Positions 1,753 through 35,170 of a stretch of 64,000 nucleotides of DNA are shown piece by piece (the first letter of the stretch is position 1; every line of letters starts with the position of its first letter). The notes under the pieces are model-generated. The model was not told the DNA's origin. It saw only the letters and a list, made by a program, of their open reading frames with translations, and did not search any database. Made by a program: the position numbers and the translations under genes. The DNA comes from Moniliella sp. 'wahieum' (Eukaryota; Basidiomycota; Moniliellomycetes; Moniliellales; Moniliellaceae). The stretch lies in assembly GCA_003971905.1 (NCBI GenBank), contig RSEE01000050.1, forward strand, positions 310,001 to 374,000, written 5' to 3'.

Positions 1753-1779
1753 GGGGGGGTCCCATCTCGGGACCCCCCC
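1753..1779. repeat. perfect 11-bp hairpin, G-rich/C-rich
   Basis: The arm 1753-1763 (seven G then TCCC) is perfectly complementary to 1769-1779, with a 5-base loop. It lies in the gene-free leader after the LTR-like segment. No gene end lies close enough to make it a terminator. Confidence 0.7.
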
Positions 1780-14136: not shown

Positions 14137-17100
14137 CGTTCCAAGATCGAGCACGGCGCGAACAAAGGGAAAGAAAGCGACTCAAACAACCGCCAGAGTG
14201 GGCGGGTGAGGTTTGATGGGCTGTTTGATGGCGTCGTAGTCGCCTCGGTGGACAACGCCAGCGGCAATGTTACCTAATCCTCAGGTGGGCCATGTGTGAT
14301 ATGTTTCAACTGTTCAGCGTTCATTTGAACGTTCAAATTCTCAGAGACGTCCCATCCCCGGCCCCTTTATTCATTTCGGGGCGTTTTGCAGGGCATTGCA
14401 TGAGAGGTCGCGCGGGAGCTGATCTTCCAACTTGTGCGCACCACCGGGTACACATATTTTCAATGATGCGACGGTGGAGGAAGACGAGGAAAAACTGGGG
14501 GGAAGCAAGACCAGACGCACGGACAAGCGAGAGTGTTGCCGTGTGACACCAGGACATCCTCATTTGTATAGTGAGTGGCTCGGGTCCAAAAAGGAGGCCA
14601 TGAAGGTCACTTACAGGCAAATAGCATGCGAGGAGACGGAACCCCTTGGGCAACGCCGCGAGAAAGGGTGCATGGACTGGTGTGGAGCAAACGTAATGAT
14701 GCGACAAGAAAATACCAAGTATTATCAGGGACGCACTCGCGACCTGTCCTTAATTCCCTCTGGCCATGGTGACACGAGGAAGGTAGTACTATGTCACACA
14801 CCGTCGAAGACGGCCAACAAGATGTTTGAGCACATGAAGAATCTTACTGAAGAGTCTCATTGGAGATGGTTCTTCGCTCACATATATGTCTTTCAAACTT
14901 ATTCGTATCCACTCACACTGCATCCGGTTTTGGGAAGCAGCTGTGGCGGGGGACAAGAAGTTCTGACGTGTGCGCGACTCCACTGGCCTCCTCTAGTTAT
15001 TTTGGTATACGTGTAAGCAGCACATGCCGGCTCATATTGAGCGAGCTCGGTAGGTGTAGCATTTCGCTATCCCTAATATCTTACGCTTTGCAAATGATGA
15101 TAGTTATCAGGTGTAGTACCGGACATGTATTTAACCCTCGCCCCAACAATGGTTTACATCGTCGATTGGGCACAATTAAGGCAAGCCATCTCAATTCGCT
15201 TTGATGAAACGCTTGAGAGAAGCTTCAGGAGTCCTTCATTGGGACTGTGTTCGAGGTACCACATCTCGATCTCTAATGATATCATTGACAGAGAGCTTAA
15301 GGCTGAGACAAAGAAACGCTGGGCCTAAACTGTTGACCTGTTAATCTGGTGTGCCTTACTTGTTGGCGTCAAACCCCTTTAGGAAACCAGAGAAACCGCC
15401 ATCAGATCAGGACTGCAACGGGTGAAGATTAAGTCGCCTTGATCAAGTCGCCTTGTACAACCACCTCCAACCCCTTATTGTCCCTCTCGCTTCTCGGCTT
15501 CTCTCTCCCCCTCCTCCTTCCATCCAGCGACGGGGGTACAGGGCAACCCTCTTCTCATTCGCACGCCCCTCTGGTCCGAGTCAAAGTCGTCTTGGGAGCA
15601 GGGGAACGGAGGAGGTTCGGCGCTGTTGGCCCGCTGGCCAATGCTCGCCTCTTCTGGGACTTGGGGAAAAGTATATGAGCTCCGCTGGCCCGCCTGCCAA
15701 CGTTCGCTCGCACGAATACAAGGTCCGGGGGACTGCTAAGAGGATCGGCGCTCTCCGCTGGCCCCCGCCAGTCAGTTTTCACCCGTCACAAAAAGGGTTC
15801 TTGCGTGCGAACCCGGGTACTATATAGACGTTCTTGTCCCATTCAGATTATTCCAAGAGTCGAAGCAGCTTCTTCTCGTGGCGTTCCAATGGCGTCGCGG
15901 TGCTCTTCTCGTGTACCACCCTTCCGTACGCAGACAGCGCCTCCCCGTTCCCGATCTCCACAAAGTGAGGTCTTTCTCCATTCTTTATCCTCCGAAGGCT
16001 TCAGGTCTCAACACTCGGTAAGTAGTCAATACGCATCGTCATATCCTTCCACACCTCGCCCCATCATTGTCCCCCCCTTAGTCGGCTTGTGGATGTGGTA
16101 GTGGGGGATGGATCGCCCCAGTGGAAGAATGGGAACCTCATGAAATGCACCAAAATTGGACTGGGTGAGGCTGAAGCCATGATGTGCTTAAGCGCGGACA
16201 TGACACGACACACTGGCCCATGCTGTGCGTGGAACGGCACAACAAGGTGCGGAGTTGGAGACCAATCTGAACCTTCTTTGTTTGTGAGCCGAAGGCACAC
16301 AGATCATGGGACTGAAGAGAGCCAGGTGTGATTCAGCGCGTTGCTGTGTGCTCGACGACATTGCGACCGTCGGCATCGTCGAGCTTCTTGGGCACTTCCT
16401 TCCGGCTCTTCTCCCACCTCCCCTGACAGCGCTTGGGCCGCGTCGTAAATGCGTTCGTCGTGCGTGCGTCTAAAAAGGGGGCAATAAAAAAGTGGTAACG
16501 ACTAATAAAAGAGAGTATTAGCCGTTGACCTCATTAGCGGGCTGCCGCATCCTCCCATTCAAAGAGGCAAGCTCACGAGAATATGTCAAAGTCATCGTTC
16601 GTCGTGCCTTGGGAGTTCTATTTACTTCGGATCTGTGGGAACTCCGTGCAGATGAATGCGTTAATCTCGTGGCCAGCATTCCTTTAACATCTCCTTTCGC
16701 CACTTAGTGTCGCTCTTGATACTTCACGCAACAACTTTCCCCGCTCCTCCCTTCCTGCTTCGCCCCCGCCCATTTATTGGTTCTAGCACTACGGTTCGCA
16801 CCATCCACCCTCATCGATCATCAGGCCTCAAGGGCCTCAAGCGCCACTACATGTCTCAAACGGAATGCACATCGGGAGAGTCGCACTCCGTCCGAGTCAT
16901 TTTCTTGCATAGAATACTGCTTTGGCTATGAATGTCAGTATTCGGTACAAGTATACTCGATTCGTACAAAGTGTATTAGTCACAGCCGTATAATGCTCGG
17001 TCTGAGCACTCTCTGAGCACTCAGAGATGGGTGTGACTGATGGGATGAGTATTACTCAGTAAATCCTCTGTATTTCTTATAGTCTCCCTCCCATCATCTT

Positions 17101-17760
17101 GTTTTTTTCATCGACCATCGATGATCGATCGATCATCCCCACTGCTGTTCTGTTCTTCCAACTCTGGCCTAGGGCCTCAGGCTGAGGCCTCAGGTCTCCT
17201 CGGTCTCTTCGGCCTATCAGATGCCGGCAGTCGAGAGCAGCAATCTAAGCCCTCTTGTATCCCTTCGATCGCATCCATAGCCCCAGAAACGGGCCAGGCC
17301 ACAGTGTCTCAACAGGCTTCAGGCCCTCGCGAGCCTCTTCGAGAGGTAGGTCACATCAAATTAATCTACCCCTTTTCTTCACGGTCTTGGCGTTGTGATG
17401 CAAGCTAATACTACTAGTATGTGTTTAATGCAAGTTTTTTTGAGCGCTCTCTCAGAACGATTAAGAATATCAGTGGTCCGGAGGGCTCAAACTTCCACCA
17501 CAGGCCATCTTTTGTTCCACCTTTCGCCATCCCGATACCACAGTAGGTAATCAAGTGCGAGAGGTCTCAGAAAATCGATAGGGGTCGATTATTACTGCAG
17601 TGGCGAGCGTTCTCACATGTTCAGGCTCAGGCTGGGCGATGAGTATACTGAGTGAAAGTAGAGAGAGGAGCAGCGGCAGTGAGGAGAGGGTGAAAGGCAG
17701 TGAGATAACTCTGGGTATATGTCTCTCTCCTTTGCAGCCCATTGCGATAGGAAGTTGAGG
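14137..17760. other. gene-poor stretch with dispersed repeats
   Basis: No confident gene. The segment 14815-15000 is a diverged copy of 32240-32430. The segment around 15300 resembles 11498. A TATATA near 15823 is followed by a short frame at 15889 ending at a possible GTAAGT donor (16018). On the minus strand near 16330-16470, IYDAAQALSG followed in the next frame by RWEKSRKEVPKKLDDADG looks like the C-terminus of an unrecognised protein with an AG acceptor just upstream; I could not extend it. Confidence 0.35.
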
Positions 17761-17764
17761 TGTG

Positions 17765-17798
17765 AAGCTTGAAGCTTGAAGCTTGAAGCTTGAAGCTT
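17765..17798. repeat. AAGCTT heptad array, five units
   Basis: AAGCTT starts at 17765, 17772, 17779, 17786 and 17793, a strict 7-bp period with spacer G. It is followed directly by AGGCCT- and CCTGAG-type repeats to about 17845. Confidence 0.95.
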
Positions 17799-17905
17799 GA
17801 AGAGGCCTGAGCCTGAGCCTGAGGCCCTGAGGCCCTGAGGCCTAAAAGGAGAGCCTTTGCCTGTCCATCACCCACACTCTGCAGTATCTTTTTCCTTCCC
17901 CCGTT

Positions 17906-17939
17906 ACGCGTTACGCGTTGCGCGTTACGCGTTACGCGT
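17906..17939. repeat. ACGCGT heptad array, five units
   Basis: ACGCGT starts at 17906, 17913, 17927 and 17934, with a one-base variant (GCGCGT) at 17920, all at a 7-bp period with spacer T. The CpGs are intact. Confidence 0.95.
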
Positions 17940-18333
17940 TATCAGGCGTTACATATGTCACTCCTCGTTTGCAAGTTACATGCCCTATTACATCCGCCAT
18001 ATGCTCCCCCCATCTAGTACCACAGCCTGCCACAGCCACATCTTTTGCCACAACGGAAAAATGGGTCAATGTGCTCAACGCGCTCAACGCGAATCGGTCC
18101 ATGCCCCGCCAACGTCCAACGCTCCGCCATGGTCAAGCCGGTTAGCGCGTAACGTCGTCTTCTTAGATCTTACTGCACGCAAATCCTACAGATCATTGAT
18201 GCATGATGCATGATGCAAGCAGTTGATGCAGTTGATGTTACCTCCAGACAATTACGTTACACACGTACTGTATGGTTTTCGATCGATCTCACATCTCATC
18301 TCCGCGCTCTCAGATCTCAGACCTCAGATTCTT

Positions 18334-18374
18334 AGATCTCATGTCTGACACGTGACGGGCGACGCGTGACGCGT
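18334..18374. repeat. mixed palindromic heptad array
   Basis: Six hexamers start exactly 7 bp apart: AGATCT at 18334, ATGTCT at 18341, ACACGT at 18348, ACGGGC at 18355, ACGCGT at 18362 and ACGCGT at 18369. Perfect palindromes flank degenerate ones, but the period never slips. Confidence 0.9.
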
Positions 18375-18903
18375 GACGGCCCTTGTGATCACCGATCATC
18401 GATCCTTACCAAAGCCCTTTAGGCCTTAATTAGGCTTCCTTAGGTCTTATTACATGTTCCTCCCTTGTACCATGTACTGCATGTACACCCTCTTTAAATT
18501 TGACCTCCGACGCCCACACGTGTGTATACATTGGTTTCTTCGAACCCCTGTATCTCCCCCAACAGGTATGGCTTTGCCTGGTATAGGCATGATGTGCATG
18601 ATGCATCATGCATGAATTTGGAAACCTGCCGCGGCCTCCTGCCGGCCTCCTGCCTCATCTTCAAGCTTCAGGGGCATCATGCCATTCACAAGCAGACCAC
18701 CACCACCACCACCGTTGGATTGCTCTATGTAGTACTTCTCCAGGGGTTCCCTTACAGGCTTCGGCGAACGTTCATCTGGCCTTAGGCCTTACCTTAGGCT
18801 TAGCTTGTTGTACTTGTAGGCCGTGTTTTACAGGCCCCTTTTGTACACAACTTTTTAAGCTTCACACTGCGCCTCATTGATATGGAGGGGCTATCCCACG
18901 TTC

Positions 18904-18916
18904 AAGCTTCAAGCTT
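18904..18916. repeat. AAGCTT heptad pair
   Basis: AAGCTT at 18904 and 18911. A single ACGCGT follows at 18923, out of phase. Nearby ATGCAT pairs with 7-bp spacing occur at 18199/18206 and 18601/18608. Confidence 0.9.
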
Positions 18917-19231
18917 CACGTAACGCGTAACAGTCTTCAGTATGCTCAGGCCTGAGCCTCAGGTTCCAAATGTTCCTGGTGTATATAAACCTCCGAAAGT
19001 CCGCGACATTATGGCCTGCGACGCCGCAAAAATGTCTCTCAGACGTTACTTCTTCCGACTCGCCGTCTGCATGAAGCTCAAAAGCGCTTTTAGGCTTAAA
19101 CTTATTCGCGCTCTTAAGCTCTCAGGATCTCAGATCTCAACAGATCTCAAGCATCAAGCCTTCGTCAGACCTCAGGGTCAGGTCTCATGTGCGCTCCTTC
19201 AAGCTTCAGTCGAGCTTCAGTACTCAGTCTG

Positions 19232-19251
19232 AGTACTCAGATCTCAATATT
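19232..19251. repeat. three different palindromes in one 7-bp phase
   Basis: AGTACT at 19232, AGATCT at 19239 and AATATT at 19246, each followed by spacer C. This is the clearest case where the rule is the 7-bp period and palindromic form, not a particular sequence. Confidence 0.95.
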
Positions 19252-21689
19252 CAATTCCGAAAATTCCTATACACATCTCGATACTTCTGCAGTCTATGGT
19301 TTCTTGATCGTAACCTGATGAGACCTGGAGTCCGGATGGTCCTCGAGGGTGATGCAATCGCACTGATGGTGGTGGTGGTGGTCTAAGCCAACCAGCAACG
19401 CCTACTGAGGAACATCATGCAGCGAGTCGCCACCAGGGGCTAAGCTGCGGAGAACAAGGAAAAACAGGAGAGAAAACAACGGAACTCCTAGGCCTGAGGA
19501 GGAACTGAAAGGACATTGGCCAAATCACGAGCCACCCGGTGGCTCAACATAACCTCTTGTGGGAGGGCGGGAGGGAAGCGTTTCGCGGCCACTGATGAGG
19601 CGCTGAGGTGTTGAGTAGGGACCAAGAGGGTTAGGAAGCAAGCAATTAAGAAAAACTGTACCCATCATGATGCACCCTAAAGAATACCTGTGTAATGCAT
19701 GTAATGCTGCTACGTCGTTACCTGTGGCGGCGTCTGACGCGGCTGATTAGTAGTAATTGTGAAAAAGAGTTACAGACCCTAGAGTTGCCGCGCCCAGACC
19801 AGCAGATCACGTGTATACACTCTGTCCCACTGTTGCTTGTACTGCCCTATTCTCCTTCTCCTTTTCTCTTCCCTTCATAGTACCTATCGCTCACCTTGTT
19901 GATAGATTCTCACTCGCTGATTGTCATTGTCGCACGGGCATGGCCACTCGGGTCACCGTACATGGTTTAACGGGTCATATCATCAAACTTGGTTGGACTT
20001 CTCAGTGCGCTCTACTGGGCATGTGTAGAGCAGGCGGGACTTAGCTTTGATCAGGCCATCTCATATCCAACGCAGCCCGTACACACTGTGATCGTTCTAT
20101 GTACTTTATAGAGACTAGGTGTTTCCCAGGCCAGAGCCTAGCTTGCGCGTTGCCAGTAAAAACGGTAAAAGAGAGGCCAGGAAGCTGTATATCTAGAGCG
20201 CGTCGTAACTAACTTGTGACTGATAATTGTTGCGGGACAGCTCTGTTGGTGCACGCATGGTACATTTGCCTTCCTCCACCAGTGCAAAATGCATGGGTTT
20301 GCTCTTGGTATGTGTGTGGTTCACACATAACCAACGAAAATGTCTAACCAGCTGGTATAGCGTCCAAATACTGTGGCGCATCAACAGCCGAAAGTCTGGT
20401 TCCCTCTCCCCTTTTATACAGTAAATCATATGCACCTATCCCGTCCCCACGGAAGGCCAAATAATATTCTTGGTGGCTTCCGTACTCTCGTGTATACATC
20501 ATCCAGCTAAGTACACCAACTCTAGCTGCCTGGTCTCCCAAACAAATGCCCTCCTTTGCATACCCGTACACCCAACCAGTGCCCAAAACGTGCAACAGGA
20601 GATCTCACAGGCCCTATAGGGTCGATGGGGAATGTTGACGACTTTTTGAGACTGACATAGATGTGATGCTTGTGGTCCTGCAACTGCTCCGATCCCGGAT
20701 CTCGATAGCGCGTCCCCTGGCCAATATGCAATAGACAACAGTAAGGTGTTTGATACCCATTGGAGCCATTCTTTCCCAGAAACTACCACCCCCGCGGACA
20801 GCAAACCTATACACCGTAACGATGTAAAAATGCAAGGTGTTTACCTTTGCTAATCGAATGCTGAGTGGCATATATTGACGCATTGATACACCTGAATGTC
20901 TGAGTGTTTCTTTTGAACTGAACAGCCGTTTTGAACTGCTTTTAAATACTGTTTCTTTGCCCCCCTTAGGCTCTCTGTCAATGATACGGTCCCAAAATAG
21001 AGATATGGGAGGATGTAACAGTCGGGCTAAACGAGGGAGACCAAGGTCCTGTCAGAGGCGGGGGGAAAGGCAGATCGTTCGTGGGAGGAAACAGAAGGCA
21101 TCAGGCAGAGAACAGAAGCAAAAGGGAAGGGAAGAGCGAGAGACACAGGATGCGGAATTGGAAATTGGAGCGAGCTTAGTCATTCGGTGACAGAGGATGG
21201 TCGATGACCTTAACGATCTTAGTTATATTGTTGTGGTAGTGCCTATCGGCAAAAGATCGACTACCAGTCTACTAGGGGTACGGAGATCTTTGGGGAGCCC
21301 AGCCAGAAGCTTTAGCGGCCGACCAGGGGGGAAGGGAGGTGGAGAGAGTCTTGGGCGAGAAGTCAAATTTCAAAGGTGAGGGGCCTGAGGGTTAGACGTT
21401 AGGGTTAGGTCTGAGGGTCTGGGGGCCAGACGCACTGATGTGCTGACGCGCTGACGGCAGAGGCTGTGCTGTGGCTGCGGCACTGTCGTAGCCACATGCA
21501 CATGTCATGCATGTCACATGCCGTGTCTTGAAGCTTGATGCAGTGGCATGGTTCCGTAGCGCGGCCGTAGCCCACAACAAAAGTAAAAGGGCCAAATCGG
21601 GGGCTCAACGTACGTGCTCAACGTCAACGTGTTCAACAGTCCGCTGCAAAGCCGCATGCCCCTGGGACCTGATATACTGATACTCCATG

Positions 21690-21935
21690 AGATCTGAGAT
21701 CTGAGATCGATGAGGGGATGGGCCGGCCTTGGGCCTTGAAGCTCTTGAAGCTTGAAGCTGATTCTCAGATCTCTCAGATCTCAGTACCCCCAGGAAACCC
21801 CCAGGAACTCATCAGCACTATCAGCAATAGTATCAGTTGCTCAATACACGTCCGTGAAGCTAGTGACTAATGACTTAATGACTACCTCAGGCCCCTGGGC
21901 CTGAAGCTTGAGCTTGAAGCTTGAAGCTTGAAGCT
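21690..21935. repeat. AGATCT and AAGCTT heptad arrays
   Basis: AGATCT at 21690 and 21697 (spacer G), then AAGCTT at 21904, 21916, 21923 and 21930; the last three are at 7-bp steps. Confidence 0.9.
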
Positions 21936-22484
21936 TATCTTGAAGTCTGAACTCGCTGACTATCGTCGATGATCTCGATTATCGATTATCGGAAGCTGGA
22001 AAGGTTGCATCAACAACGTTATCGATTATCAACTAACAGAGACAGAAGAACCTAGCTTGTTTCCGCTTCATTATCATTAATCATTGGTAACCGGTGAAAC
22101 CAGTAAAGCTAGGAATCGATAATCGGTACCCGGTTAAACCCGAGAGCTCACATGCGCTCTAACAGAAAAGGGCTGCAGTTTCTCTGCCTATGATGAACAG
22201 TAGGCTGTCAGGCTATGGATCTGGGGCTTGCTGGGGCCTGTCCTGCTGCATGTAGCACGTGCAATAGCAGCTGTAACATGTAATAGGCTATAGTCCGCCA
22301 ACGGCCTCAGCGTATGAGCTGAGCGCCAGCGAACTGACCGTTGCACCGGCTCAGCCAGAATGGGCTCTGGCCGAGTACTTGACTGGGAATTGCCAGGCAT
22401 TGATTGATCGCCTGGTGCACAGGTTCTAACCCATGCACGTTGCTCTCGTCGATCTCCTCCTTCCCCACAAGCATCACAGGCATC

Positions 22485-22656
22485 ACATGTCACATGTCAC
22501 ACATCACGCGTCACGTGGGTCCTGGTCCAATTGGCACGTGGCGTGTGGCACGTGGCACACGATGACCCATTCGTATAATCATATCACGCGTCACGCGTCA
22601 CCTGCCACCGATGATTGATCATACATCATCGACATCATCGATCATCGATCATCGAT
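22485..22656. repeat. ACATGT, ACGCGT and ATCGAT heptad arrays
   Basis: ACATGT at 22485 and 22492, then ACGCGT at 22506, still a multiple of 7 away. ACGCGT at 22586 and 22593. ATCGAT at 22637, 22644 and 22651, all with spacer C. Confidence 0.9.
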
Positions 22657-22751
22657 CACCGTTCATTTGGTCACACGTCGCCGCGTCACCGGTCTCCGGT
22701 CAGTGAGACTTGCAGCATGCCACTAGCCTCGAGACTAGCCCCTCTGCCCTG

Positions 22752-22812
22752 ATGCATGATGCATGATGCATGATGCATGATGCATGATGCATGATGCTGA
22801 TGCATGATGCAT
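22752..22812. repeat. ATGCAT heptad array, eight units
   Basis: ATGCAT starts at 22752, 22759, 22766, 22773, 22780 and 22787 with spacer G. After a one-base slip it continues at 22800 and 22807. This is the longest single-type array in the window. Confidence 0.95.
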
Positions 22813-23043
22813 GATGGCATGGCATGCATGATGCAGGAGGACATGAGGTGCATGAGGATACCAGAATGGGTGGATGAACTCGATGAACGTAACAATGATC
22901 GATGAACGATCGATGAACGTTGAACGGTGGATGCTTCTCAGGCGCCCCACTAGGCACTGCAATACATACCACGGTCGATCGAGATTGATCTAATTAAGCT
23001 TGACAGATCTGCGATCACTTCGAGCTTGAACAGCTTGAACTTC

Positions 23044-23063
23044 AAGCTTCAAGCTTCAAGCTT
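23044..23063. repeat. AAGCTT heptad array, three units
   Basis: AAGCTT at 23044, 23051 and 23058 with spacer C, followed by a degenerate AAGCTC in phase. Confidence 0.95.
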
Positions 23064-23327
23064 CAAGCTCAAGCGATCCGGTCGCCGGTCGCCGGGTCAC
23101 ATGCATCACGCGTCAGGTGTCAGGCTAAGGCCTAAGGCCTAGGCTTAGGCCTAAGGTCCCACAGGCATCAGGCCGTCAGGGCCTCAGGCCTCTACACGTA
23201 ACGCGTAAACTGTTGACTTCTTCAGCGCTGAGCCGCTTAGCGCTTACGGGTTACCGGCTAAGTGCGCACGGAGCCTGAGCGGCTCAGCGGCTGCGCGCGC
23301 AGCGCTGTGCGATGCATGTTGCATGTG

Positions 23328-23368
23328 ACATGTGACATGTGATGCATGATGCATGATGCACGATGCAT
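23328..23368. repeat. mixed ACATGT-to-ATGCAT heptad array
   Basis: ACATGT at 23328 and 23335, ATGCAT at 23342 and 23349, ATGCAC at 23356 and ATGCAT at 23363, all with spacer G at a strict 7-bp period. A degenerate AGGCCG follows in phase at 23370. Confidence 0.95.
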
Positions 23369-23435
23369 GAGGCCGAGGCTCAGTTCTTAGGCCCATTGAA
23401 TATTGAGTAACTGAGTACTCAGACTGAGTGGTCTG

Positions 23436-23455
23436 AAGCTTGAAGCTTGAGGCCT
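23436..23455. repeat. AAGCTT-AAGCTT-AGGCCT mixed heptad array
   Basis: Hexamers start at 23436, 23443 and 23450, spacer G. AGTACT lies just upstream at 23414. Confidence 0.9.
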
Positions 23456-23725
23456 GAGCATATCGACGTCGAACGATGACATTGAACATTGAACGGTTGA
23501 ACTGAACATAGATGGTACGTTGATGTGCGTTGATGTCTGGCTGCCGTGCCCACCGGCCACCATTCATGTCGCCGTCGGCACCGAACTGAATCGTCCTTGA
23601 CCTGCGACAAGGCAATTCCAACACAGCTCTTATAGCCCCTCCCACCGTTCCGCGCTCAGCCTCAGTGTCAATAGGCTCAATACCGACGACACTCAGTGCT
23701 CAAATGAGCTGTACTCTTCGTTCAC

Positions 23726-23757
23726 AACGTTCAACGTTCAACGTTCAACTGAACGTT
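23726..23757. repeat. AACGTT heptad array
   Basis: AACGTT at 23726, 23733 and 23740 with spacer C; a fourth copy at 23752 is out of phase. AGCGCT-type palindromes follow to about 23820. Confidence 0.9.
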
Positions 23758-24729
23758 GAGTTCAACAGAGCCTGAACGTTAGGCGCGAGCGCTGAGGCTC
23801 AGCGCTCAGGCTGAGCAGTAGTGCCAGCTCGTTCAGCCGCTCAGCCTGAGTGAGCGCTCATCGCGCGTTCGCACGTTTCTTATTCTCCTAGTTGGCATAG
23901 ACCCGCGACAATTGCATGCCTATTACTCAGGGTGTGAAAGTCTTTGGATGCATTCGATCCACCAACGCACAATATAGCCCTTAGGCCTTAGGCGTTATGC
24001 ATTACGAGCTTCCGCGCTGCTCCCGCCTGCCCAGTCTCGATCGTTGCCTCCCCGATGCGCATGGGCGATGGCAACAACACGGGTGGCGGCCCTGTCGCCA
24101 GCCTTTGCGCTCGGACTGCGTCTGAGTATATATTGGGCATACGGGGTACTGAGTCTCAGTTCCTGTGGGTAGTGTGATTGTTGCACTGATCAGTCGAAGG
24201 CGCACAATGCACACAAGACGCCACACATGCCCCCTGCGGTTCTCTGTGTAAGCTGCACGCCTCTGGCTTCACGCTTCGCACATCCGCAGCAGCTGTGGCA
24301 TCTTTTTTTGATGCCGATGATGCCTGCAGTGTGTACATATATATTTACACCTATTTCGATCCATCCTACCCACGCGGGCGCTCATCGATCGGAACGATTC
24401 CGAACGTGCGCGACGCAAAGTTCCCTCCTTCCCCACCATCCATCAGTTCGTCATCACCGTCGGTTTCTTTCTCAGCCTCAGGGCGGCTATTAGCTACCCA
24501 GCACGCACCCCTATCGTGGCTGTCATCCAGCCTCAACCCGCGCCCTGTTCTTGCCTCTCGCTGCAAAGCTGCTGCCACGCAAGCCTCATTTGCGGCTCGG
24601 TACTGCGGTAGCGAATCTGGATCTGATACTCATTACTCCCCCACCCCTCTCTTCTCCATCCGCCCTCCGTCTCCCCACCTACCATTCCCACCATCGCCTC
24701 CTTCCATTCCTCTTGCGACCGTTGTGAGG

Positions 24730-25746
24730 ATGAGCTCTTCCAATCCACTAGATGCGAGCGCTGGTTCGACCAGTGCCTCCGCCCTCCCCTCCGAATCAAC
24801 TGACCAACGGCCAAGACGCACTCGTCTCCTACGCCCCGGGAAGATCAAAATGCGAGGTGAGCCTCCCCCTTCGCGCCTGTCAGATTTGATAAGAGACACT
24901 GACCCCCCCCCCCCCCCCCCCCCCCCGCCCTCCTTCCCCTGCCGCCCTTCCTCATTCCCTCTGCATTCAGCCGCAAGTACGAGCTCACCATCCTTCAGAG
25001 CCCCACCATTGGCCCAGCCTACGAGGCAGATCCGCTCCGTCGTATCTCAGTTCAACCGCCGCTTGTGGCTCAGATTACGATCAGGGATCATACTGGCCGA
25101 GCTTGATGGGTAGGTCGCCTCATGCATCATCCCATTTGGATGTAGTTGGCTCACATTTTGCCTGTCATTCCGATGACGCCTTCCTCGTGGTGCTGTCAAT
25201 TTGATCACAGAAGATCGTCAACCCGCCGATACACTTCTCCCTTCCCCTTCGGTTTCTGCTGATGCACCCAGCGTACTCCAACCCCCCGAAACCTAACAGA
25301 CCAACGTATACCGGCGGCTCCTTCGCTTCGGGGAACCTTGCGCCCGCTCGCATGCTCGCCGGTTCCATCAATACCAATGCGCAGCGATACCAAGACCTGA
25401 ATGGCATCAACCGCATCTTCCTTGTCTTCCCGAAATTAGTGTTCGACCGTCGGACGTTACTTGTTGGAAATCCTCCTTTTCCGTATTACCTTGTGAGATC
25501 CCTCCTCCTCTTGGGTTTCCATACTAATGTGGTCAACGTCCAACGTCCAGTGGTGGTGCAAACACCTCTAGCCTCGCAGAGGCAGTCACCCCCCACGTCA
25601 TCCAAATTGTCCCATAGTCAACTACGTCGCGCCTGGTAGTGTCTGTCTTGCCGAACGTGTGCCGTCCTACCCCCCTCCCGCGTTTGCTGCCTCCAGAACC
25701 GACGGACCTCTCGGTCCACCTCCAACGCCAAGGCGCGGACAGTTGA
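24730..25746 (+). CDS. velvet-domain transcription regulator
   Basis: Velvet proteins are fungal DNA-binding or bridging factors that couple light and development to sporulation and secondary metabolism. From the ATG at 24730 a disordered Ser/basic N-terminus runs to a GTGAGC donor at 24857. After the acceptor at 24970 comes KYELTILQSPTIGPAYEADP, then LRRISVQPPLVAQITIRD, the opening of the velvet domain. A second intron runs 25110-25210. Exon 3 carries VNPPIHF, YQDLNGINRIFLVFPKL (the 'GxFFVFPDL' core), then GRYLLEILLFRI in a shifted frame, and finally EPTDLSVHLQRQGAD, matching the domain's end. Shifts near both splice joins and 25440 look like indels. The subfamily (VosA, VelB or VelC type) is unclear. 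The first intron contains a 24-base poly-C run. Confidence 0.83.
24903..24926. repeat. 24-base poly-C tract in the velvet gene's first intron
   Basis: An uninterrupted run of 24 C, the longest homopolymer seen in the window, between donor 24857 and acceptor 24970. Its length is likely to be unreliable in the assembly. Confidence 0.9.
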
Positions 25747-28271
25747 CTCCCTTCCTTGATTTGCAAGAGTGATGATATTGTTGAAACCCATTCACCAAGC
25801 TACAAGGTGTCGTTGCGATATGTTAAGCAATATGCCCCTTTGCTTTATCCCCCTAACTTTCTCAGATCTTGATCGCATTCATGCCACCATTTCCTCCTCT
25901 GCTGTCTTCTCCCCATATACGCCGTTTCGTTTGCCTACCAGTCCACATCTCCTTTGCTATTCCCGGCGTCTACCTTGCTCTCTCTCATCTGTCACATTAC
26001 CTACGCCCTGTTCCCCCCCACCACAGTCATTTGGGGTGTTACAGCATATTCCTGTATTCCGTGGGCAATGATACATGATAGGTATTGGACGCACATCTCA
26101 GAATTGCATCTGTTGTATGTAGGGTCTTCTATTGCGCTGCGATCCGTCACCATTCTGCTCTTTCCATGGGCAAACCGACATTCAATGATCTGTTTCATTG
26201 GCTCTGGCCTTGTCCTCAAATTTGGTACACACTTTGACTGAGTATATACTGAGATAATCAAATCCGATACTGTCTACCCGATCATTGTCAAGAGAGACCC
26301 AGACAAGATTTTACCACCATTGTATCCCTCCGCCCTCTTCGCCTATGGGAACATGAAACCATTTAGCAATCTGGCTCTGACTCAAAACCTGCTGGCCGCG
26401 TCTTCCTATGCCACCACTCTGATTCCTGTCGTCATAACAGGTCGGACCTCCAACAAGAAGGGCTCACTTACTTTTCCTTGGTGGAGCTTGCTGCGAGGCG
26501 ATAACAATGTGAACCTCTCGGTCATTTCATTTGCTTTCAGACGTGACGCTGAACCCAAGGCCTTTCCATTCTTTTCTTGAGTTCAAAGACACACTTCTTG
26601 AGAGCAGGGAGCGTGCATTTTCTTCTTGATCGACTGACTGTGGCTGGCGACTTTACACAAGGGGGATTATAGGTGAGCAAAATCACCCTACCTCTACTGT
26701 GCGACGATCTTGTACTCTTGTGCTCGTAATTCGATTGAGTTCGATTGTTAGTATGTGCCTATGTGCTCTTTGATCGTCTGGTCGTACGGCGATATGTTTT
26801 GGAAACTCTGTTTCGCCTTCGTCGTTGAACTTCGTAACGAACCGCCTTCAGTGTGCAGTGTTTACGAATGGTATTGTGAGAGTGTGCGAGCATGTCCCTC
26901 CTCAAGATCTTTCCAATCTGAATTACTCACCATTGTTGCCAAAAAAGGGGATACTCCACGCCAAGACTCCTCTATACTGATTGTGTATAACATAGTGTAA
27001 CAGCGATATTTTTTGCCTCATTCGTCCCCTATAATAACATGTACAACTCTTTGCCGTTGTCTTATTTTAATGGATCTGCTCCGCGCGAAGAGGAGAGTAT
27101 AACTAGTAAAGGCGAGCTTAAAGATCGCATGGGGCAGTCCGGCACAATCCGCTTGACGATCATTTAGCGGGTAGGTGATACATAGGTATGTAACATGTAA
27201 GGGTAGTAGCAGCAGAGGGCGCTCAGAGCGGGGATACTACAACAAATGATTAATTCGATTAATGACATCAAATGCTAGAGTGGCCCTGAGGCCCCTGAGG
27301 CCTGTGGGCATATATATATGTAAGAAGAGAGAGATAGACTCCACTGAGACTCGGCATAGAACAGGCCGAAGGAAACCGTGATGCACATAAATATGCACGA
27401 TGCCTTCAGAACGAACTGAACGGCAATTGTTCCCAATCTCCATGTTGGGAGAACGAAGCGTCACGCGGTCATCACGCCGATCACGCCGGTCACGCCGGTC
27501 TCTCACGCGCTCACGTCTAGTATACCGGAGCAAAACAGCCGTAGTCCGCGGGAGTGAGAGAGGGTGCTGTTTTACGCATCACGATAATACCTGTTTTCTC
27601 TCTCTCTTCTCCTTTTGTGCGGCATTTTCCAGTGTGTACTGCATATTCCTGTCGCGGTTCTTTGACCCATTTTCTATCTTCAGGCCCCTCCGGCCTCAGG
27701 CTGAGGCCTCATCCTAACCTCACTAATTCCTTCTCACTTGTCACATGCTATTCTTACTCCATGCATTCGTTTCCTGGTTCCCGAACTTTCCTATTGTTTC
27801 GGCCTCCTTTTTATTCCCGTGCCTCGCCACAGGAAGCACTCCAGTATACATTGCCTCTCCCGCCTACTCTCCCCCACCCTCAGGCCTCATTGTTCTAGTA
27901 ATTCTCCCGCTTCCATGTCCTACCCTGTGTCCCGATTTGAACTCCATCGATCATCCCAGTTTCAGGATTAGCACAGGGATGTGGTCTCAGGCCTCAGCTT
28001 CAGGCTTCAGCCTGAGCCTCTCAGGGCTCATGCCGGTCTCACACCTCAATTCCATACAAAAGTAGGTCCTATATCTGTTAACCCACAGCAGCCCCATCTC
28101 CCCCTGGACGGACCAGCCCAACTATATATTCAAGTTCCCCATTTTCCCCACCTTATGATATACCTATCCATCCGTGCAGCTGTCTGCTTCGTCGCCCCCA
28201 CCAAAAATGGTTAAATGTGCTCGGGTACATATGCTTATAGTCTGACATCCCAATACCGAACCGAAGGCACC
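25747..28271. other. gene-poor stretch after the velvet gene
   Basis: No recognised gene. The frames at 25769-26580 could be an unrecognised downstream gene or a disordered continuation, but no motif supports this. AGGCCT-rich patches occur near 27280-27300 and 27690-27710. Confidence 0.4.
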
Positions 28272-28367
28272 GGACGATGCATCGGCTTCTGTAGCTCTCT
28301 GCCCCCTGAAAAGTCACCAGCACAGTGCATTGTTCGTGGGAGGAAGGTTCAACTCCTCCGTCGTCCA
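28272..28367 (+). tRNA. possible tRNA or tRNA-derived sequence
   Basis: GGACGAT (28272-28278) pairs fully (one G-T) with GTCGTCC (28360-28366) as a 7-bp acceptor stem, and 28367 supplies the discriminator base followed by CC. Immediately inside lies GGTTCAACTCC, a good B box forming a T arm with one mismatch, at exactly the spacing a tRNA needs. The D arm and anticodon arm are not convincing. A CCTGAAAA loop (anticodon GAA, Phe) with an intron is one reading. It may be a tRNA damaged by indels or a SINE head. Confidence 0.35.
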
Positions 28368-28789
28368 CCATGGAGGGGAGCCGGTCGGTACGCTCTCTCG
28401 GCTCGTTGGACCGCCCCGCTGCAGATCGGAAGGCCCACTGTTGGTATATCGATGTAATACTGCCTGCTTGATGCTGGGGGCAAAGTGGCGCACGAGGCTG
28501 CCCATGGACATTGGCTGCGCCCTTTGCCAGCCGACTTTGGTCCACCAGCTCAGACCTAGGCTAGCTTCAGGGGGTGCGGTGTGGGGTGCTGGGGTGCTGT
28601 TGCAACATGGCTGGCGATAAGACAGTTAGCCAAATCATCTGCGCGCATTTCCCTTTTCCTCTCGCCACCACATCTCTCCTTCCCCCTCTCTTTCGCTCGA
28701 CTTGATACTTAATCAATATAATACTCGCTGATCGATCGTTTTAGCCCAAGATAGGTGACTGGAAGATCGTGTCCCTCTGTGTGACGTTC

Positions 28790-30500
28790 CAGAAACAAGA
28801 GGCATCGTGCAGGGAACAGCAGCACAAGGGAAAGGGAAGAGCCAGGTGCAGGAAATTGGAGCAAGCGTCGTCAATTGGTGACATTGCCCCCTTTCAGACC
28901 TCACTTCCCCAGGATTGGGCAAAGCGAGTAAAAGCAATACGACGTGCGCCGGAATCAGGATCGTCTTAAGGACGGATCGGCCTCATGGGACATATCCGCA
29001 ACCAGTGGCACTCACTCCCGCTCGTGGACAGCGTAGCTCTTGAATGGAAAAGGCACTCAAGTACTCAAGACGTCCTCAACCCTTACAGCGGGAGTCAAGG
29101 ACCTCCCGGACCTCGTGGTGAACCACCCTAGTATCGTCAGCATACTCGGGAAAAGTCGGAGAGGACTGGCGGGCACCGCCCGCGACACAATGGACCGTCA
29201 AGCGCTCGAGCAAGCCGTCAGCTGAGTGGCTCGAACTGCAGGGAATTGGCACCACCAACTTGGACAGCCGATCAACCACCACCAGTACCATATTGAGCAC
29301 CTCACCCAAACTCCCGTCCTCCTCCAGCAGAGGCCCGAAGTGATCCATACTAAAACTGGACCAAGGGCGAGCTGGAATCTCCAATGGGTAGAGTAGACCT
29401 GAGGGATGCTGGCGGCAGCTCATGGCGGTTTGGCATAGTGAGCAAGTATCTACGTAACGACGCACATCAGAGACTATTCCCGGTCAATAATACCAACGCG
29501 CCAGTGGGTCATACGTGCGCTCTCTTCCCTGGTGCCCAGTCTCGAACTCTTCGTGGTGGTCGTGAAGTAAAAGGTGTACCGTAATAGAGCTTCGGATTCG
29601 GGCACATATGCCTCTCCTGGAAGTAGAGAGGCCCGTCGCGCCCCTCATAGACCTGCAGCGCATAGCCTTCCTCGACTCGCTTCACAATGGCCTCATGTCC
29701 TCCGTCGTGCTCTCTGAGCTCTTGGATTGCCTCAATCACTTCGCCTTCGGACGAACGATTGTGGTGCAGTGGCTCTTCGGCTGCTTCTACTTCTCCAGCA
29801 TGACCATCGACATCGGCGAGGATCAACTACTGCGAGGGAAGCAGCGAGAGGGACACACATATTCATCATCATGTTCTTCCGACTAGGCTCGAAGGATAGG
29901 CTGCTTGCGCCACCATTACGCCGCGTCTCGTCGGCCGCGCCTTCCATCATTTTCTTGTTCCACCAGATCCAGCCGACAGGATAGGCCGTTCGCAGTACCG
30001 TTCTTCGAGCCGGGACGCTAAATCATCAATGGTTGACCGAAGAAAAACGCACCACAGCTTGCTTGCCGGCGGTTGCGCTGACCCTCGTCGTTGTAGCCCA
30101 CAAGATTCTTGTGGTGGGTCACTAACTCCAAGTCCCGGGCCGATTCCACCAAATTCCGGAAAACCTTGAGCGCCGTGATGATGGGGAAAGAATTCCTGAT
30201 CGCCACTCCCCAAGGCTGCTCGATGGGTGTGGGCTTCCCAGTGGACCAATGGGCTATTGGGCTGCGTCCCCCGTGAGGTTGAAATAAAACCGCTTCCACG
30301 GCATAGCCACTTGTATCCGACTCGATCTGAAAAGGCTTGTTCTGGTCGAAGGGTGAGAAACAACTAAGAGAGGAAGTTGCCTGTACTGGGTTGATCCAAC
30401 TGGCAAGGACAGCATATGGGAAGACGCCAATGGACTGTAGGGAAACTCACGCATCGAATCTCATTTTGCTTACTGACAAGGGTAATCAAGAAACAACACA
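28790..30500 (-). mobile_element. Ty3/gypsy-type LTR retrotransposon remnant (fossil)
   Basis: On the minus strand, in order: an RNase H-like portion (about 30360-30020), a linker (about 29830-29500) and the start of an integrase core (about 29465-29080) with the zinc-binding CxxC and the HPxGLL.PL.IP.RPW..SMD context typical of Ty3/gypsy integrases. The flank 30370-30500 resembles 12040-12160, and 28790-28890 resembles 21060-21190, as expected of terminal or leader repeats. No gag, protease or reverse transcriptase core is recognisable. It is broken in several places and looks old. Confidence 0.75.
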
Positions 30501-33035
30501 CGCAGTAGAGGAACAACAGGGATCCAGGGAAAACAGGAGGGGTGGCTGCTGCGCGGGCAACGTAGAAAGGTAAATGGGCACGGGGCGACTATCGTCGCAC
30601 AGGAAGTTAATGAAAATTGGGTACATCCGGTGGATACCAATTCATTGGGCGAAAGGCGACTATGGTCGCGCGGATACGTAGAACTGATGATCGCGCTGGC
30701 GGGCACGCTGCCCATGATCCGACTGAGTTGAACGTACGTTGAACCTGGAAGCGCGCTCTATTGTTGGAAAGAGCAGACTAACCTCAGCTGAGGCGCTGAG
30801 GTCTGAAATTGGTTCAGATCGGAACTGACCCGATGACCAACCTCGGGTCGGAGCTATAGGAAGACGATGGGAGTGCATAGGCTCTTCCCTGGGCATGCCA
30901 GTCAGTTTTCGACCGTGACAATGTGAAGGCAATCATGCATTAGGACTCAGGTGGCACTTCCGACAGCACAGACGATTGGAAAGGGTCCCAGGTAGCGATA
31001 AAATCCAAACTGTCGGAAGAACATTTGGGTGCATAGGTCATAATGCATAACGACGGACCAAGCCCGGTTGACCGACTTCAGAAGAGTCGGCCTCGGTGCA
31101 TGTGCGATACTCCTATCAGCGTTGTACCGATGCACCCACAGGCAGTCGCGGCCAAGGCGAAATTGCCGTGCCGGACGCTGCCTCTGGCGCCTCTGGCAGA
31201 GGGTCTCCGCTCAATCCAGGCCGTAGCTCCGAAGACCTTCGTCCTTGGAGAGCGAGCTTGGCCATAGGGTGGCATACTAAGAATCGCTCGTCTGTCACGG
31301 CGTCATCGCGTCATCTGTCATCGGGTCTTCCCTTCAGGCATATTGATACCTACTATAAGCCCCACAATCCCAAAACACCAGGGCGTACTCCAATGATGGA
31401 CCTTTTACGACTACTAATGTATATGACGGCTGCGCGAATTGCAAGTGTTGCTGTGAAGTGCGTTTAATATTTGCGCACTGTTTGGCATTGACGGATGTTA
31501 TAGTTTCGACGATCCGAGGGGACAAGAACCCACAGACGTTATAGAGGGGCGATCCCTTTGATATGCCATATAATGAACCTTCCTATTTGAAGGGAGGAAG
31601 TGGTTGCCCACCCTACTGTATAATGTTTGTTTCACGCATACGTGCGTGCTGCGGCCAAGGAAATAAAAAACGACCATACATCTTATTATACCACTCTCGT
31701 TATACCCCCCCATGCACGGATGTACACACTCGACGAACACATTCATACGACGCAACGCAAGCTCTCAAAAGAATGTGGGAGAAGACTCGGCAGGAGCTAT
31801 CCAATTGAAAGAAGCTTAAGGCGGCCCATGGAAGCAATGCGTGGTCGAGCGCAGCAATGCGTTCAACGAATACACTTGACTTTCCTCGAAGCCAGCAGTA
31901 CCTCGAGCTCACCGATAAGGAGGTTCAGTTCGATCTCCAACTCCGTACCCTGTACTGCTCCTTTCAAATAGTAGCAAGTGTAAATGAGGTTTAACGACAT
32001 CGCTTGAACACACCCTTTTGGCTTGCACGCGCACCCAGTTCAAATTTGGCGATGATTGCGTATCGGAATGCGGTGATATACACGAGAGGGAACCGCAACG
32101 CACTTGGAAGACCGCGGAAGGAGCTGTTGATTCGACTCTGTCGGAGCAAGCCGAGTGCGACAAAAGAATTCCAAGTACCAATGAAGCATTAAAGTGCCAT
32201 TCTTCTATTTGGTAGTGATGATGCGCGGATACTATGTCACCAACATGGCCAGCAAGACGTTAGGGCACTGGAATGACTGAAGAATCCCATTGGAGATAGT
32301 TCACATGGTACGTTCACAGCTCATGGGTCTATCATATGCTCATTCGTATCCAGATGCGCTACTTCCGGTTTGAAAGCGAATGGAGGATGTCAGATGGTCC
32401 AGAACTGCTGGGGATTCCATTATTTTACCAATCAGTGGTTTGACAGGAACAATTTACAAGTAACACTTCGGAAGAACCAGCCGCTTAAGCACGGTACCTC
32501 CTTGTCCTAGCCTTTTGTATAAACTCAAAGAATGCACAGAATACCAAGAAAGATACTGCTATTCTTGAACAGAAGGCTGCAACCCCCTCCTCAACGTGAC
32601 TTTCTGATGCCTGAGTCGGTTGGGGCCCGAGTACTTGCCTGCGATGACATAACACCACATTCGTCAAAATATCTGAACGTGCCATAACTTCATTGGAACT
32701 GTAGACGCGGGTCCCTTCCGACTGCAAATCATCAGTCCGTAGGTATTGTCACGTCTCGTTCTCGTCTGTGCGGTGTAAGGGCCGCCTCCATCCAGAACAA
32801 CTAGGTAATACATTAAATTCCCTTACACATGCCATTGAACTTCTCTCAAATCCACCTCCGCACAAAAAGGAGAAGTAACACATATAGCTCTCTCATCCTT
32901 TTCTGTGTTTTTATTATGCAGTCGTCCCACACAGGCATGGACTTTTCTTGGCACGGACCACATCTTTATGTAGGAACGCATCCCTGTTGGTCTCTATTAT
33001 CGCGTGCGGTCTATCTTGATGCTTCTCAATGCGAC

Positions 33036-33069
33036 GGACTGAGGACTGAGGACTGAGGACTGAGGACTC
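33036..33069. repeat. GGACTGA heptamer tract, about four units
   Basis: A tandem 7-mer whose internal hexamer AGGACT begins with A and ends with T but is not a full palindrome. It has the same period as the palindromic arrays. Confidence 0.85.
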
Positions 33070-33278
33070 CTTCTCTCGACAAATCTTTATAGGATCAAAA
33101 CTTGGACAGGGGGGATGAGGAAACGTAACCGGCGTTACCGGCGGCGTAACCATGACTGCCCCCATCAATTTCTTCCGGCGCGCAGCCTGTGAACACGCAC
33201 ACAATTATGTACACCACGCCAATAATTAAAGTTCCTCCTCTCTTACGTGCTTACGCTCGATCACTAACAAAAGGGGTA

Positions 33279-33297
33279 ACCGGTAACCGGTACCGGT
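33279..33297. repeat. ACCGGT heptad array
   Basis: ACCGGT at 33279 and 33286 (7 bp), and a third at 33292, one base short of phase. Confidence 0.9.
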
Positions 33298-33970
33298 AAA
33301 CCCGCGATAGTCAAGGTCTGTCAGGGCTTCTCTGACGCTTATAACGCGTAACGGGTATTCGGTACGGCCGGTGACATGTGACAGATGGTGTGCAACGTCT
33401 ATCATATATCAGGGCCCATATCTATAGGGGTTATACCGGTTATTGCCGGCTTGACTAGTGACTGTGGTCACTTGACCTACTGTCACACGTCACGGTGGCC
33501 GCAGTGAAGCTTGAAAAGGAAGCTTGAAGCTGGGAGGGAGACGGGAGCCCACAGAGAAGAAGGCGGAAAGTGGTGATGAGAAACAATTATGCCATTTGGG
33601 GGCGAGCTTCAAAAGCTTCAAGCTTCAAAAACTTCAGCCGCCAGCGCTTAATAGCGCCAACGTGTCCAACCAGCAACTCCTTCGCGATCGATGAGCATGA
33701 TGATCGATGCGCCTCATCGCTGAGCCGCTGTGAGCAACACAACATGTGTCACATGTGACAGGTGTGATACGATTGCCCCGTCCCGAATGCCCCACGATCG
33801 ATCTGGGACGTAGTGTGCCAAGTGTGCTCGATAAGCACACCATTACCGGCGGTCTACCATTCTCTGCAGAGGGACAAGGCTGGCAACCTACCCCCAGTTG
33901 CGGGCAGATCTTAGAGCGACGCCCCTGAGCCTCAGGCACTCAGATCCCTCAGAGGCTTGAAGCTACCTTC

Positions 33971-33983
33971 AAGCTTCAAGCTT
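33971..33983. repeat. AAGCTT heptad pair
   Basis: AAGCTT at 33971 and 33978. ATGCAT pairs with the same spacing lie nearby at 34337 and 34344, followed in phase by ATCCAT. Confidence 0.9.
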
Positions 33984-35136
33984 CAGAGCTTCAGAGGTCC
34001 CTCTCTCGGATCTCAGTCTGAGATCTTAGACCGTACTGGCAGCTCTGCAGTGCAATTACAGTTATACATGTTGCACGTCGTTCTCTCGGTGAAGTATAAT
34101 ATAGGTCTCGTGAATTTCATTTGTAACATGCTTTCTTCCTTGCAAAGCACACGCGCCGAATGAGGGATGGTCGATGAGTCGACGAGGCCTGCCTGGGGCC
34201 GACCCGAGGTCAGCCAGTCTAGTGCGAACCGTTTCTGCCTATAATGCCTCTTGTAAAATGATGTGGATGGCCCTTTTCTTTCGCATTTTCACACATGTGT
34301 TGTGTGGAGATCTCAAGTTTGGATCGAGCGCCACACATGCATCATGCATCATCCATTGAGAGAGTGTGTAGTGTGGTAGGTGTGGATACCAGAGGTACGA
34401 AGGAGGGGTGGGGGTGGGTGGGCATGTGGAGCATGTGGATACCATCTAAAGTGCCCCCACCACAACGAGGAGGTCGACTTGGATACGATTGTGGAAAAGG
34501 ACAGCAGTACTGATGGCGCGATTGCATTCTGATATGGATGGTGGCTGAGCCGCTGATGATGGAAGAAAAACGGATCCGTGATCCTGAGATCTGGGAGGCC
34601 TTAGCCTTAAGGCCTTACTGTGTGTGGCCTGAGCCTCAGGTGTGACGGTGCCGCGTGACCGACATGTGGCAAGCGTCATACAGGCTGTGATGTGCGTGAC
34701 ATGTGAGAACCGATGAGTGACCCCGTGACAGAGCGAATGTATCACATTCGGATCACACCAGCACTTGTCCCAGCCACACGCCACCATTCCACCTTCGCCG
34801 CAGGCGGCCGTAGCGCTGTTAGTCGGATGCCTGGTGTGGGAGCTTGCAACTTCTCCCCGTTTAAAGTCTACGGCCTTAGGATCTTAGGAGTTAATCGTTA
34901 CGCGTTACGCGCGTTGCGCGTTACTAGTTATAGCCCCTGCAACAGTTGGGTGCGTCACACAGGCCATATGCCGGTGCGGACACATCACCTACTGTCACAC
35001 TATCACATGTGATGCATGTGATTCCCATTCTAATTCTACATTTTAGCCCAACTGAGGGCGGGGAGTACCCTCCATACTCAGTCTGAGTACTGAGCCTCAG
35101 TCTTCAGTGGCAGAGCGGGATGGTGCATCTCGCATC

Positions 35137-35170
35137 ATGCATTATGCATCATGCACCAAGCTTCAAGCTT
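35137..35170. repeat. mixed ATGCAT-to-AAGCTT heptad array
   Basis: ATGCAT at 35137 and 35144, ATGCAC at 35151, AAGCTT at 35158 and 35165: five units at a strict 7-bp period, switching palindrome without losing phase. Confidence 0.95.

Follow-up and report, generated by a model that had tools for sequence, protein, structure and literature searches.

Background

Several described systems come close to the 7-bp palindromic repeats treated here, which were first noted at positions 17765-35170 of a 64-kb stretch of DNA (hereafter the window) from the basidiomycete Moniliella sp. 'wahieum' (contig RSEE01000050.1, positions 310,001 to 374,000). The repeats follow a rule in which the sequence L-TnA-R gains 7 bp to become L-TnA-L'-L-TnA-R, or the mirror image of this, where L and R are the 2 nt beside TnA, L' and R' are their reverse complements and n is any base. 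Among the known systems, small inverted triplications (SIT, of the type DUP/INV/DUP) are described from rad27-deleted yeast and FEN1-mutated cancers and linked to Okazaki junctions, with median lengths of 148/160/148 bp, 30-bp spacers, 6-bp reverse-complementary junctions and broad segment sizes, and a flap fold-back-and-return route has been proposed for them (PMC13334657). The same direct/inverted/direct order, as L-TnA / L' / L-TnA, is present at 12 of 13 polymorphic 7-bp gaps in our material. Unlike SIT as described there, the segments are fixed at 5/2/5 bp, the junction is one T-A pair and the spacer is 1 nt long.

The event also resembles a short-range template switch under the four-point model (PMC7954356) in that the return point precedes the departure point, and in that the inserted L' is the reverse complement of the adjoining L, after which synthesis returns to the template. 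In great-ape template switches the reverse-copied fragment has a median of 12 nt (median absolute deviation 4.5, maximum 128), and the available text of that study reports neither a fixed length nor a core motif (PMC7954356), whereas both are found here. On these comparisons the event can be described as kin to both small inverted triplications and short template switches, only much smaller and locked in its geometry.

Quasi-palindrome correction and palindrome elongation are known from rnh201- and rad27-deleted yeast (PMC3820800, PMC5677150). There, too, the nascent strand folds back, templates itself and returns, and extension of palindromes with amplification is described; the route proposed below appears close to the palindrome elongation of rad27-deleted yeast (PMC5677150). 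However, quasi-palindrome correction, as these reports present it, needs a prior imperfect inverted repeat or palindrome, while seven one-sided empty alleles in our comparison read L-TnA-R with R not equal to L'. The prior inverted repeat in these one-sided cases is limited to the T and A of TnA, and the five two-sided cases are compatible with either reading.

Inverted insertions that are very short and self-templated are likewise produced in the fold-back inversions at double-strand breaks of yeast, which differ in having a 10-bp imperfect inverted repeat, a 41-nt loop and variable length, and in that nearly all of those described need end joining (PMC11724301). Palindromic microsatellites of Fusarium mitochondria are also short palindromic repeats that are optional among relatives; they are, however, A-run/T-run palindromes in mitochondrial DNA, and the available text reports neither a period of 7 nor a TnA rule (PMC7218506). 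Compared with CNG-type structure-forming repeats, A/T-only stems are depleted here, yet CnG and GnC closing pairs stand at background. In the titles and abstract openings of the open-access PMC literature that was searched, neither the TnA rule nor heptamer arrays of this kind are described.

Palindromic tetramers between TNA triplets

The sample comprised 264 kb, made up of the window and 20 arbitrary 10-kb pieces of the one 69.5-Mb, 223-contig genome. Tetramers lying between TNA triplets spaced 7 bp apart were tested for palindromy, with ANT, CNG and GNC triplets as controls. Palindromes made up 337 of the 791 tetramers between TNA triplets (43%), against 32/519, 92/1584 and 100/1837 for ANT, CNG and GNC, i.e. 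5-6%. With TNA triplets at gaps of 2, 6, 8 and 10, the palindromic counts (108/408, 7/553, 5/411 and 2/460) were near chance or a few events above it. The excess is present beyond the window, where the 20 pieces gave 167/449 for TNA versus 21/365 for ANT, 78/1228 for CNG and 75/1396 for GNC. For 50 kb of E. coli the corresponding values were 17/198 (8.6%) for TNA and 9/135 for ANT.

A preliminary description of the window had recognised dozens of short arrays whose 7-bp unit was a self-complementary hexamer of the form A-x-y-y'-x'-T plus one spacer base. This shared form and period are confirmed and extend genome-wide. Of the exact period-7 arrays, 51/67 with a length of at least 17 bp and 23/30 with at least 21 bp fit the form, for which the chance expectation is 32 of 1172 7-mer classes (2.7%). 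Among the exact arrays of the sample no palindrome-plus-one unit of period 7 had other end bases, and TNA-type arrays at the remaining periods from 2 to 15 numbered at most 3 per 264 kb. The excess spans far more than one or two hexamers, all 16 of the form being found between TNA triplets within 17765-35170 (118 sites). Eleven had originally been listed at 7-bp spacing, of which nine have copy pairs in the interval; AGTACT and AATATT have none, and stem from a mixed chain at 19230-19253. The spacer, initially read as usually G or C and sometimes T, can be any base, although 83 of the 110 one-sided units do have G or C.

The whole window contains 170 sites and each of the 20 pieces at least one. 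Extrapolation from the 167 sites in the 20 pieces (200 kb) gives a genome total of approximately 50,000-60,000. Searches of the entire genome returned 453 matches (overlaps counted) for TGATGCA repeated three times and 773 matches for the degenerate double array TNACGCGTNACGCGTNA, versus 0 for the reversed pattern in each case.

The unit can alternatively be framed as TnA followed by a 4-bp palindrome. Isolated sites, having no TNA 7 bp to either side, account for 173 of the 337. The base n is equal in both triplets in 136 of these 173 and complementary in 19, and the site is therefore a TnA direct repeat around a palindrome and no dyad. Arrays are a minor part of the phenomenon, and single units make up 146 of the 186 all-palindromic same-n chains. 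Equal-n sites have a density of 2.17 per kb (204 in 93,865 bp) outside long open reading frames (ORFs), defined as stop-free stretches of at least 150 codons, and of 0.47 per kb (80 in 170,135 bp) inside them. The lower density in long ORFs can be explained by the expectation that a frameshifting insertion of 7 bp is selected out of genes.

Filled and empty sites in a segmental duplicate

Window positions ~11.7-33.4 kb are part of a segmental duplication, the other copy being at positions 981657-1002909 of contig C2 on the reverse strand. No C2 matches past ~33.4 kb were among the matches listed, repeats aside. Filled and empty sites were compared by aligning window positions 16201-25500 to the C2 copy, a single pair of copies with 8005 identical and 248 differing aligned bases (~97% identity outside gaps).

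The gap sizes peak at 7 bp, with 13 gaps of this size versus 2 of 6 bp and 7 of 8 bp. The rule is obeyed by 12 of the 13, eight being filled in the window and four in C2. Strictly one-sided gaps number seven of the 12, and the remaining five are two-sided and also fit a tandem copy. When insertions of random 7-mers were simulated, 2 of 20,000 obeyed the rule; simulated tandem duplication of the next 7 bp obeyed it in 2074 of 20,000, because the region is already full of arrays. Under a stricter indel filter (12 gap-free bases on each side, at most 2 mismatches), applied to an all-against-all comparison of 45 sequences including the joined C2 stretch, all nine clean 7-bp indels obeyed, and as all nine come from the window/C2 pair they add no new events. 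For this one region the rate is 12 rule-obeying 7-bp gaps per 248 mismatches, or about 1 per 20 substitutions. For 25 of the 79 window sites the C2 copy carries the identical site in the corresponding column of the alignment.

On the plus strand of the window, one-sided filled sites are located at 18161-18172 (TC-TTA-GA-TC-TTA, where C2 is empty with TC-TTA-CT), at 18780-18791 (CC-TTA-GG-CC-TTA, empty in the C2 copy) and at 22272-22283 (TG-TAA-CA-TG-TAA, where C2 has the empty TG-TAA-TA). A filled site of the mirror type, TCA-AA-TT-TCA-AA, is found on the minus strand at 21363-21374, with C2 reading TCA-AA. The opposite arrangement, empty in the window and filled in C2, occurs on the plus strand at 18935-18941 (CT-TCA-GT versus CT-TCA-AG-CT-TCA-GT), 21616-21622 (GC-TCA-AC versus GC-TCA-GC-GC-TCA-AC) and 23596-23602 (CT-TGA-CC versus CT-TGA-AG-CT-TGA-CC).

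Additional gaps of 12, 9, 9, 8 and 22 bp, at window positions 18073, 18219, 18471, 23404 and 23701 respectively, carry TnA or palindromic duplications outside the simple rule. Indels of 1-3 bp are common, and no comparable structure was seen in them by eye. No 7-bp insertion was found among the clean indels in copies of a 235-bp repeat resembling a long terminal repeat (LTR). One solo-LTR-like insert, at window positions 19313-19550, has TG...CA ends and a 5-bp duplication, TAACC, and is absent from the C2 copy; 39 more near-full copies of 87-98% identity were among the scored candidates listed. A second such insert, at window positions 21009-21192, also has TG...CA ends, with GAGGA as its 5-bp duplication, and it too is missing from the C2 copy.

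Flanks of single sites and growth of arrays

The palindrome mirrors one flank in most isolated sites. Among the 136 isolated palindromic sites with the same n, the left flank alone equals the second half of the palindrome in 53, the right flank alone equals the first half in 34, and both flanks match in 16. A plain 7-bp target-site duplication was rejected as an explanation, as just 6 non-palindromic cases repeat both flanks.

An array seems to grow from a single TnA plus its neighbours. One seed, L-TnA-R, would be expected to yield L'L units on its left and RR' units on its right, each forming one block, and to leave L and R at the edges. This was examined in mixed chains, restricted to same-n chains in which every tetramer is palindromic (186 of 382 same-n chains), of which 10 are mixed. 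The predicted edge is present on the left in 8/10 and on the right in 9/10. The four mixed chains with at least three units each fall into two blocks, while the other six have two units and test the edges only. The variety of hexamers corresponds to the variety of possible flanks, and their shared form to a shared event, the chain at 19230 excepted. That a mechanism acts on form rather than on sequence, as had been suggested at the outset, is borne out, with form being set by the flank and the TnA rule. The invariant core is TnA, and the palindrome-plus-one form is a by-product of L-TnA-L' insertion beside L-TnA.

Two-block mixed arrays are located on the plus strand at 23326-23356 (CATG CATG TGCA TGCA), whose flanks TG and TG match the seed model, and at 23434-23457 (AGCT AGCT GGCC), where neither flank is as predicted and 20 bp are missing in C2. 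A two-unit mixed array (CCGG CGCG; plus strand) at 6466-6482, beyond 17765-35170, has both flanks as predicted. The plus-strand chain at 19230-19253 has GTAC, GATC and ATAT between TNA triplets, with n varying. Uniform arrays, all on the plus strand, include TGA-AGCT at 17763-17802, with 5 full units, most of which is covered by a 43-bp gap in C2, and TTA-CGCG at 17902-17941, which carries substitutions and is common to the C2 copy. The longest array, TGA-TGCA at 22750-22835, has 6 perfect units in 22750-22794, and 60 bp of it are missing in C2. A TCA-CCGG array is located at 49033-49056, also beyond 17765-35170.

Sequence constraints on the event

Occurrences of L-XnY-L'-L-XnY were counted for each closing pair, with stretches overlapping TNA palindromes masked for every pair except TnA. 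The TnA pair gave 163 occurrences at 10,189 sites (controls 0 and 25) and TnG gave 16 at 16,593 sites (controls 4 and 3). The remaining 14 closing pairs gave 0-6 occurrences each, CnG and GnC being at background. No comparable excess was seen when the T...A loop had another length or the stem was 1, 3 or 4 nt long. The minor TnG class in the 264 kb, counted as 16 after masking, is 17 in other counts, with 14 of the 17 one-sided.

The composition of L was assessed in the cleaner set of 110 one-sided units, taken from the 264-kb sample alone, and in a wider set of 176, which takes in the C2 copy (sites shared with the window may count twice) and array-selected loci. In the cleaner set TT, AA, TA and AT were found at 0.19, 0.20, 0.26 and 0.39 of background, and the other dinucleotides except AG at 0.82-1.76; AT stood at 0.73 of background in the wider set. 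No strong base preference beyond L-TnA was found in the wider set. The base n was C or A in 104 versus G or T in 72 of the wider set, and 65 versus 45 in the cleaner one, a preference too weak for use. Weak stems being disfavoured and a wobble pair tolerated, these data point to a base-paired intermediate, though AG does not fit.

The added heptamer is a perfect hairpin, whose stem is 2 bp with TnA as the loop or, counted otherwise, 3 bp with a 1-nt loop. A T-A Hoogsteen pair across such a tiny loop is a possibility known from work on DNA hairpins. The restriction to TnA, with the minor TnG class besides, and the 2-nt limit suggest a specific protein. A pre-existing y'x'TnAxy heptamer as the target was considered and rejected, with the first arm step at 0.257 versus 0.237-0.287 in controls and no excess at the third step; at the second arm step these heptamers show a modest excess (0.303 versus 0.244-0.261).

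A fold-back model and its alternatives

We think it somewhat more probable than otherwise that each array is the product of one recurrent fold-back insertion event, in which a 3' end at TnA copies 2 nt of itself and re-primes. The insertion takes the form K-L-TnA-R to K-[L-TnA-L']-L-TnA-R and, for the other strand, L-TnA-R-[R'-TnA-R]. What can be read from the sequence is the product and the way it depends on the flank; from there we infer the strand, the nick or stall, the polymerase and the fixation. The 3' end would halt directly after TnA, at a nick, an Okazaki junction or a paused fork, and would then peel back 5 nt and fold so that A faces T across n. The folded end would copy its own L as L' (2 nt) and re-prime where L begins on the original template, which would cause L-TnA to be synthesised twice, and the 7-nt hairpin bulge would become fixed in the following round of replication. 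As the product TnAs would keep L before or R after them, repeat events could give (L-TnA-L')a L-TnA-R (R'-TnA-R)b. A particular polymerase, nickase or hairpin-binding protein may impose the strict TnA and 2-nt limits. Of the three mechanisms offered in the preliminary description, hairpin-templated copying fits best. A palindromic footprint of a nuclease or methylase found no support, because the hexamer arises from the event and is not a recognised target, and a protein filament in 7-bp register is also unsupported.

Several observations weigh against the fold-back model. The filled and empty sites come from one pair of copies, the polarity of the gaps relies on the improbability of the filled form rather than on an outgroup, and one of the 13 seven-bp gaps breaks the rule. 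Neither flank is matched in 33 of the 136 isolated same-n palindromic sites, for which later mutation is assumed. In 143 isolated same-n pairs the tetramer is not a palindrome; of these, 17 repeat the left flank only, 21 the right only and 6 both, and we take these flank-repeating pairs to be degraded sites or ordinary duplications. One of the 10 mixed chains fits neither side, and if n is free to vary the chain at window position 19230 contains three palindromes, so that more than one seed or a later change is needed. AG as L is at 0.36 of background in the cleaner set, which stem strength does not explain. By standard energies, folding of the 7-nt hairpins is unfavourable (+1.2 to +2.8 kcal/mol), with no difference between loops, as the calculation has no loop-specific terms; a protein would thus probably supply the TnA preference. 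Additionally, matches to the MutS, RNase HII and FEN families exist in the genome, so a simple loss of repair is not seen.

Simple loss of a repair gene was accordingly rejected as the probable cause. The FEN-family matches (on C14 and C19 among others) are exon-sized and none is over the archaeal whole-protein cut-off of the family. An intron-blind scan showed in-frame stops in the MutS-family matches on C122 and C132, and also in one FEN-family match, on C14; these may reflect introns or mark broken copies.

The same product would result if a TnA-specific endonuclease made a double-strand break with a 5-nt stagger that was filled in, extended by 2 nt through fold-back or hairpin opening, in the manner of P nucleotides, and closed by end joining. 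A free hairpin accounts less well than this for the strict length and the specificity for TnA, and yeast breaks are known to acquire very short fold-back insertions (PMC11724301). However, the stagger would need to lie asymmetrically around TnA, the trimming that accompanies end joining usually varies while the product length here is fixed, and the depletion of A/T-only L together with the minor TnG class suggests base pairing and not recognition alone; we regard this route as rather unlikely. Elements of the PIF/Harbinger and IS1031-like types have a TnA-type target preference, and a TnA direct repeat flanking a palindromic tetramer does resemble a target duplication with a footprint. Footprints of this form would remain if a DNA transposon that duplicates TnA targets were excised and left two bases of each inverted end behind. 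Yet the tetramer tracks the target flank rather than an element end and all 16 tetramers occur, DDE_Tnp_4 (PF13359, PIF/Harbinger) has 0 matches genome-wide in a search made for that transposase family and not for others or for intact elements, and the two inserts of more than 100 bp by which the copies differ resemble solo LTRs (TG...CA ends, 5-bp duplications). A transposon origin is therefore very unlikely.

Ordinary slippage, helped by slipped-strand hairpins of the palindrome-plus-one units as in CNG repeats, had been judged insufficient from the beginning, and the gap data agree, with seven of the 12 rule-obeying gaps being one-sided and copying no neighbour. In favour of slippage, only n breaks the self-complementarity of the units, arrays that already exist can lengthen in this way, the five two-sided gaps fit it too, and y'x'TnAxy heptamers show their modest excess at the second step (0.303). 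Against this, most chains are single units (146/186), the edges of mixed arrays are predicted, and the CNG, GNC and ANT equivalents would pair equally well but sit at background. Slippage as the whole explanation is thus highly improbable; it is contradicted for the birth of units but may still add to the growth of long arrays. Arrays of binding sites under selection for a dimeric DNA-binding protein would agree with the denser sites outside long ORFs (2.17 versus 0.47 per kb), a contrast that is expected anyway from the removal of frameshifts in genes. All 16 tetramers are used, arrays and single sites alike are polymorphic between the copies, and equal n in 136/173 with complementary n in 19 is the opposite of a dyad site, leaving this explanation with hardly any credibility. 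Polymerase fold-back chimeras arise during in vitro amplification, which provides a precedent for an artefact of assembly or amplification. Still, 25 of 79 sites are common, column for column, to a copy that differs by 248 substitutions, and sites are sparser in long ORFs; the chance of an artefact is accordingly close to negligible.

Other features of the window

The window was scanned against Rfam (gathering threshold) and for tRNAs, with no matches. A gene for a KRE2-type mannosyltransferase is located at 45021-45875, with a top match of 86%. Its best named matches are Tilletiopsis washingtonensis (76%), Jaminaea pallidilutea (75%) and Testicularia cyperi (74%). T. washingtonensis (Exobasidiomycetes) and T. 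cyperi (Ustilaginomycetes) both belong to the Ustilaginomycotina, and the fungus is accordingly related to the smut fungi. Window positions 44628-48318, which contain the mannosyltransferase and a phosphoribosyl pyrophosphate (PRPP) synthetase, have paralogues of 76-81% on C17 and C62 with the gene order kept, which suggests an older large-scale duplication. A dispersed repeat of ~870 bp at window positions 916-1787 has 37 copies among the matches listed, with 86-94% identity.

Implications

Returning to the fold-back event, a dedicated activity, either a TnA-specific nickase or a hairpin-priming polymerase, encoded by the host or selfish, could conceivably work as a writer of 7-bp units, reading the two bases beside a TnA and inserting a hairpin built from them, although we hold this only tentatively and doubt it more than we favour it. 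If true, palindromic DNA resembling restriction sites would be made continually in this genome, mostly between genes, and the activity would constitute a sequence-creating mutator of a new class, not a side effect of general replication slippage. The rule accounts for the birth, form and block order of the entire repeat class, and the product of the mutation is predictable base by base from the flanks. As a rule, template switching by fold-back is rare and varied and has to be pieced together afterwards; here it appears stereotyped and frequent, and for this reason the enzyme, strand and trigger become testable. The repeats would provide a natural example of palindromic sites and short tandem repeats being born from non-repetitive DNA.

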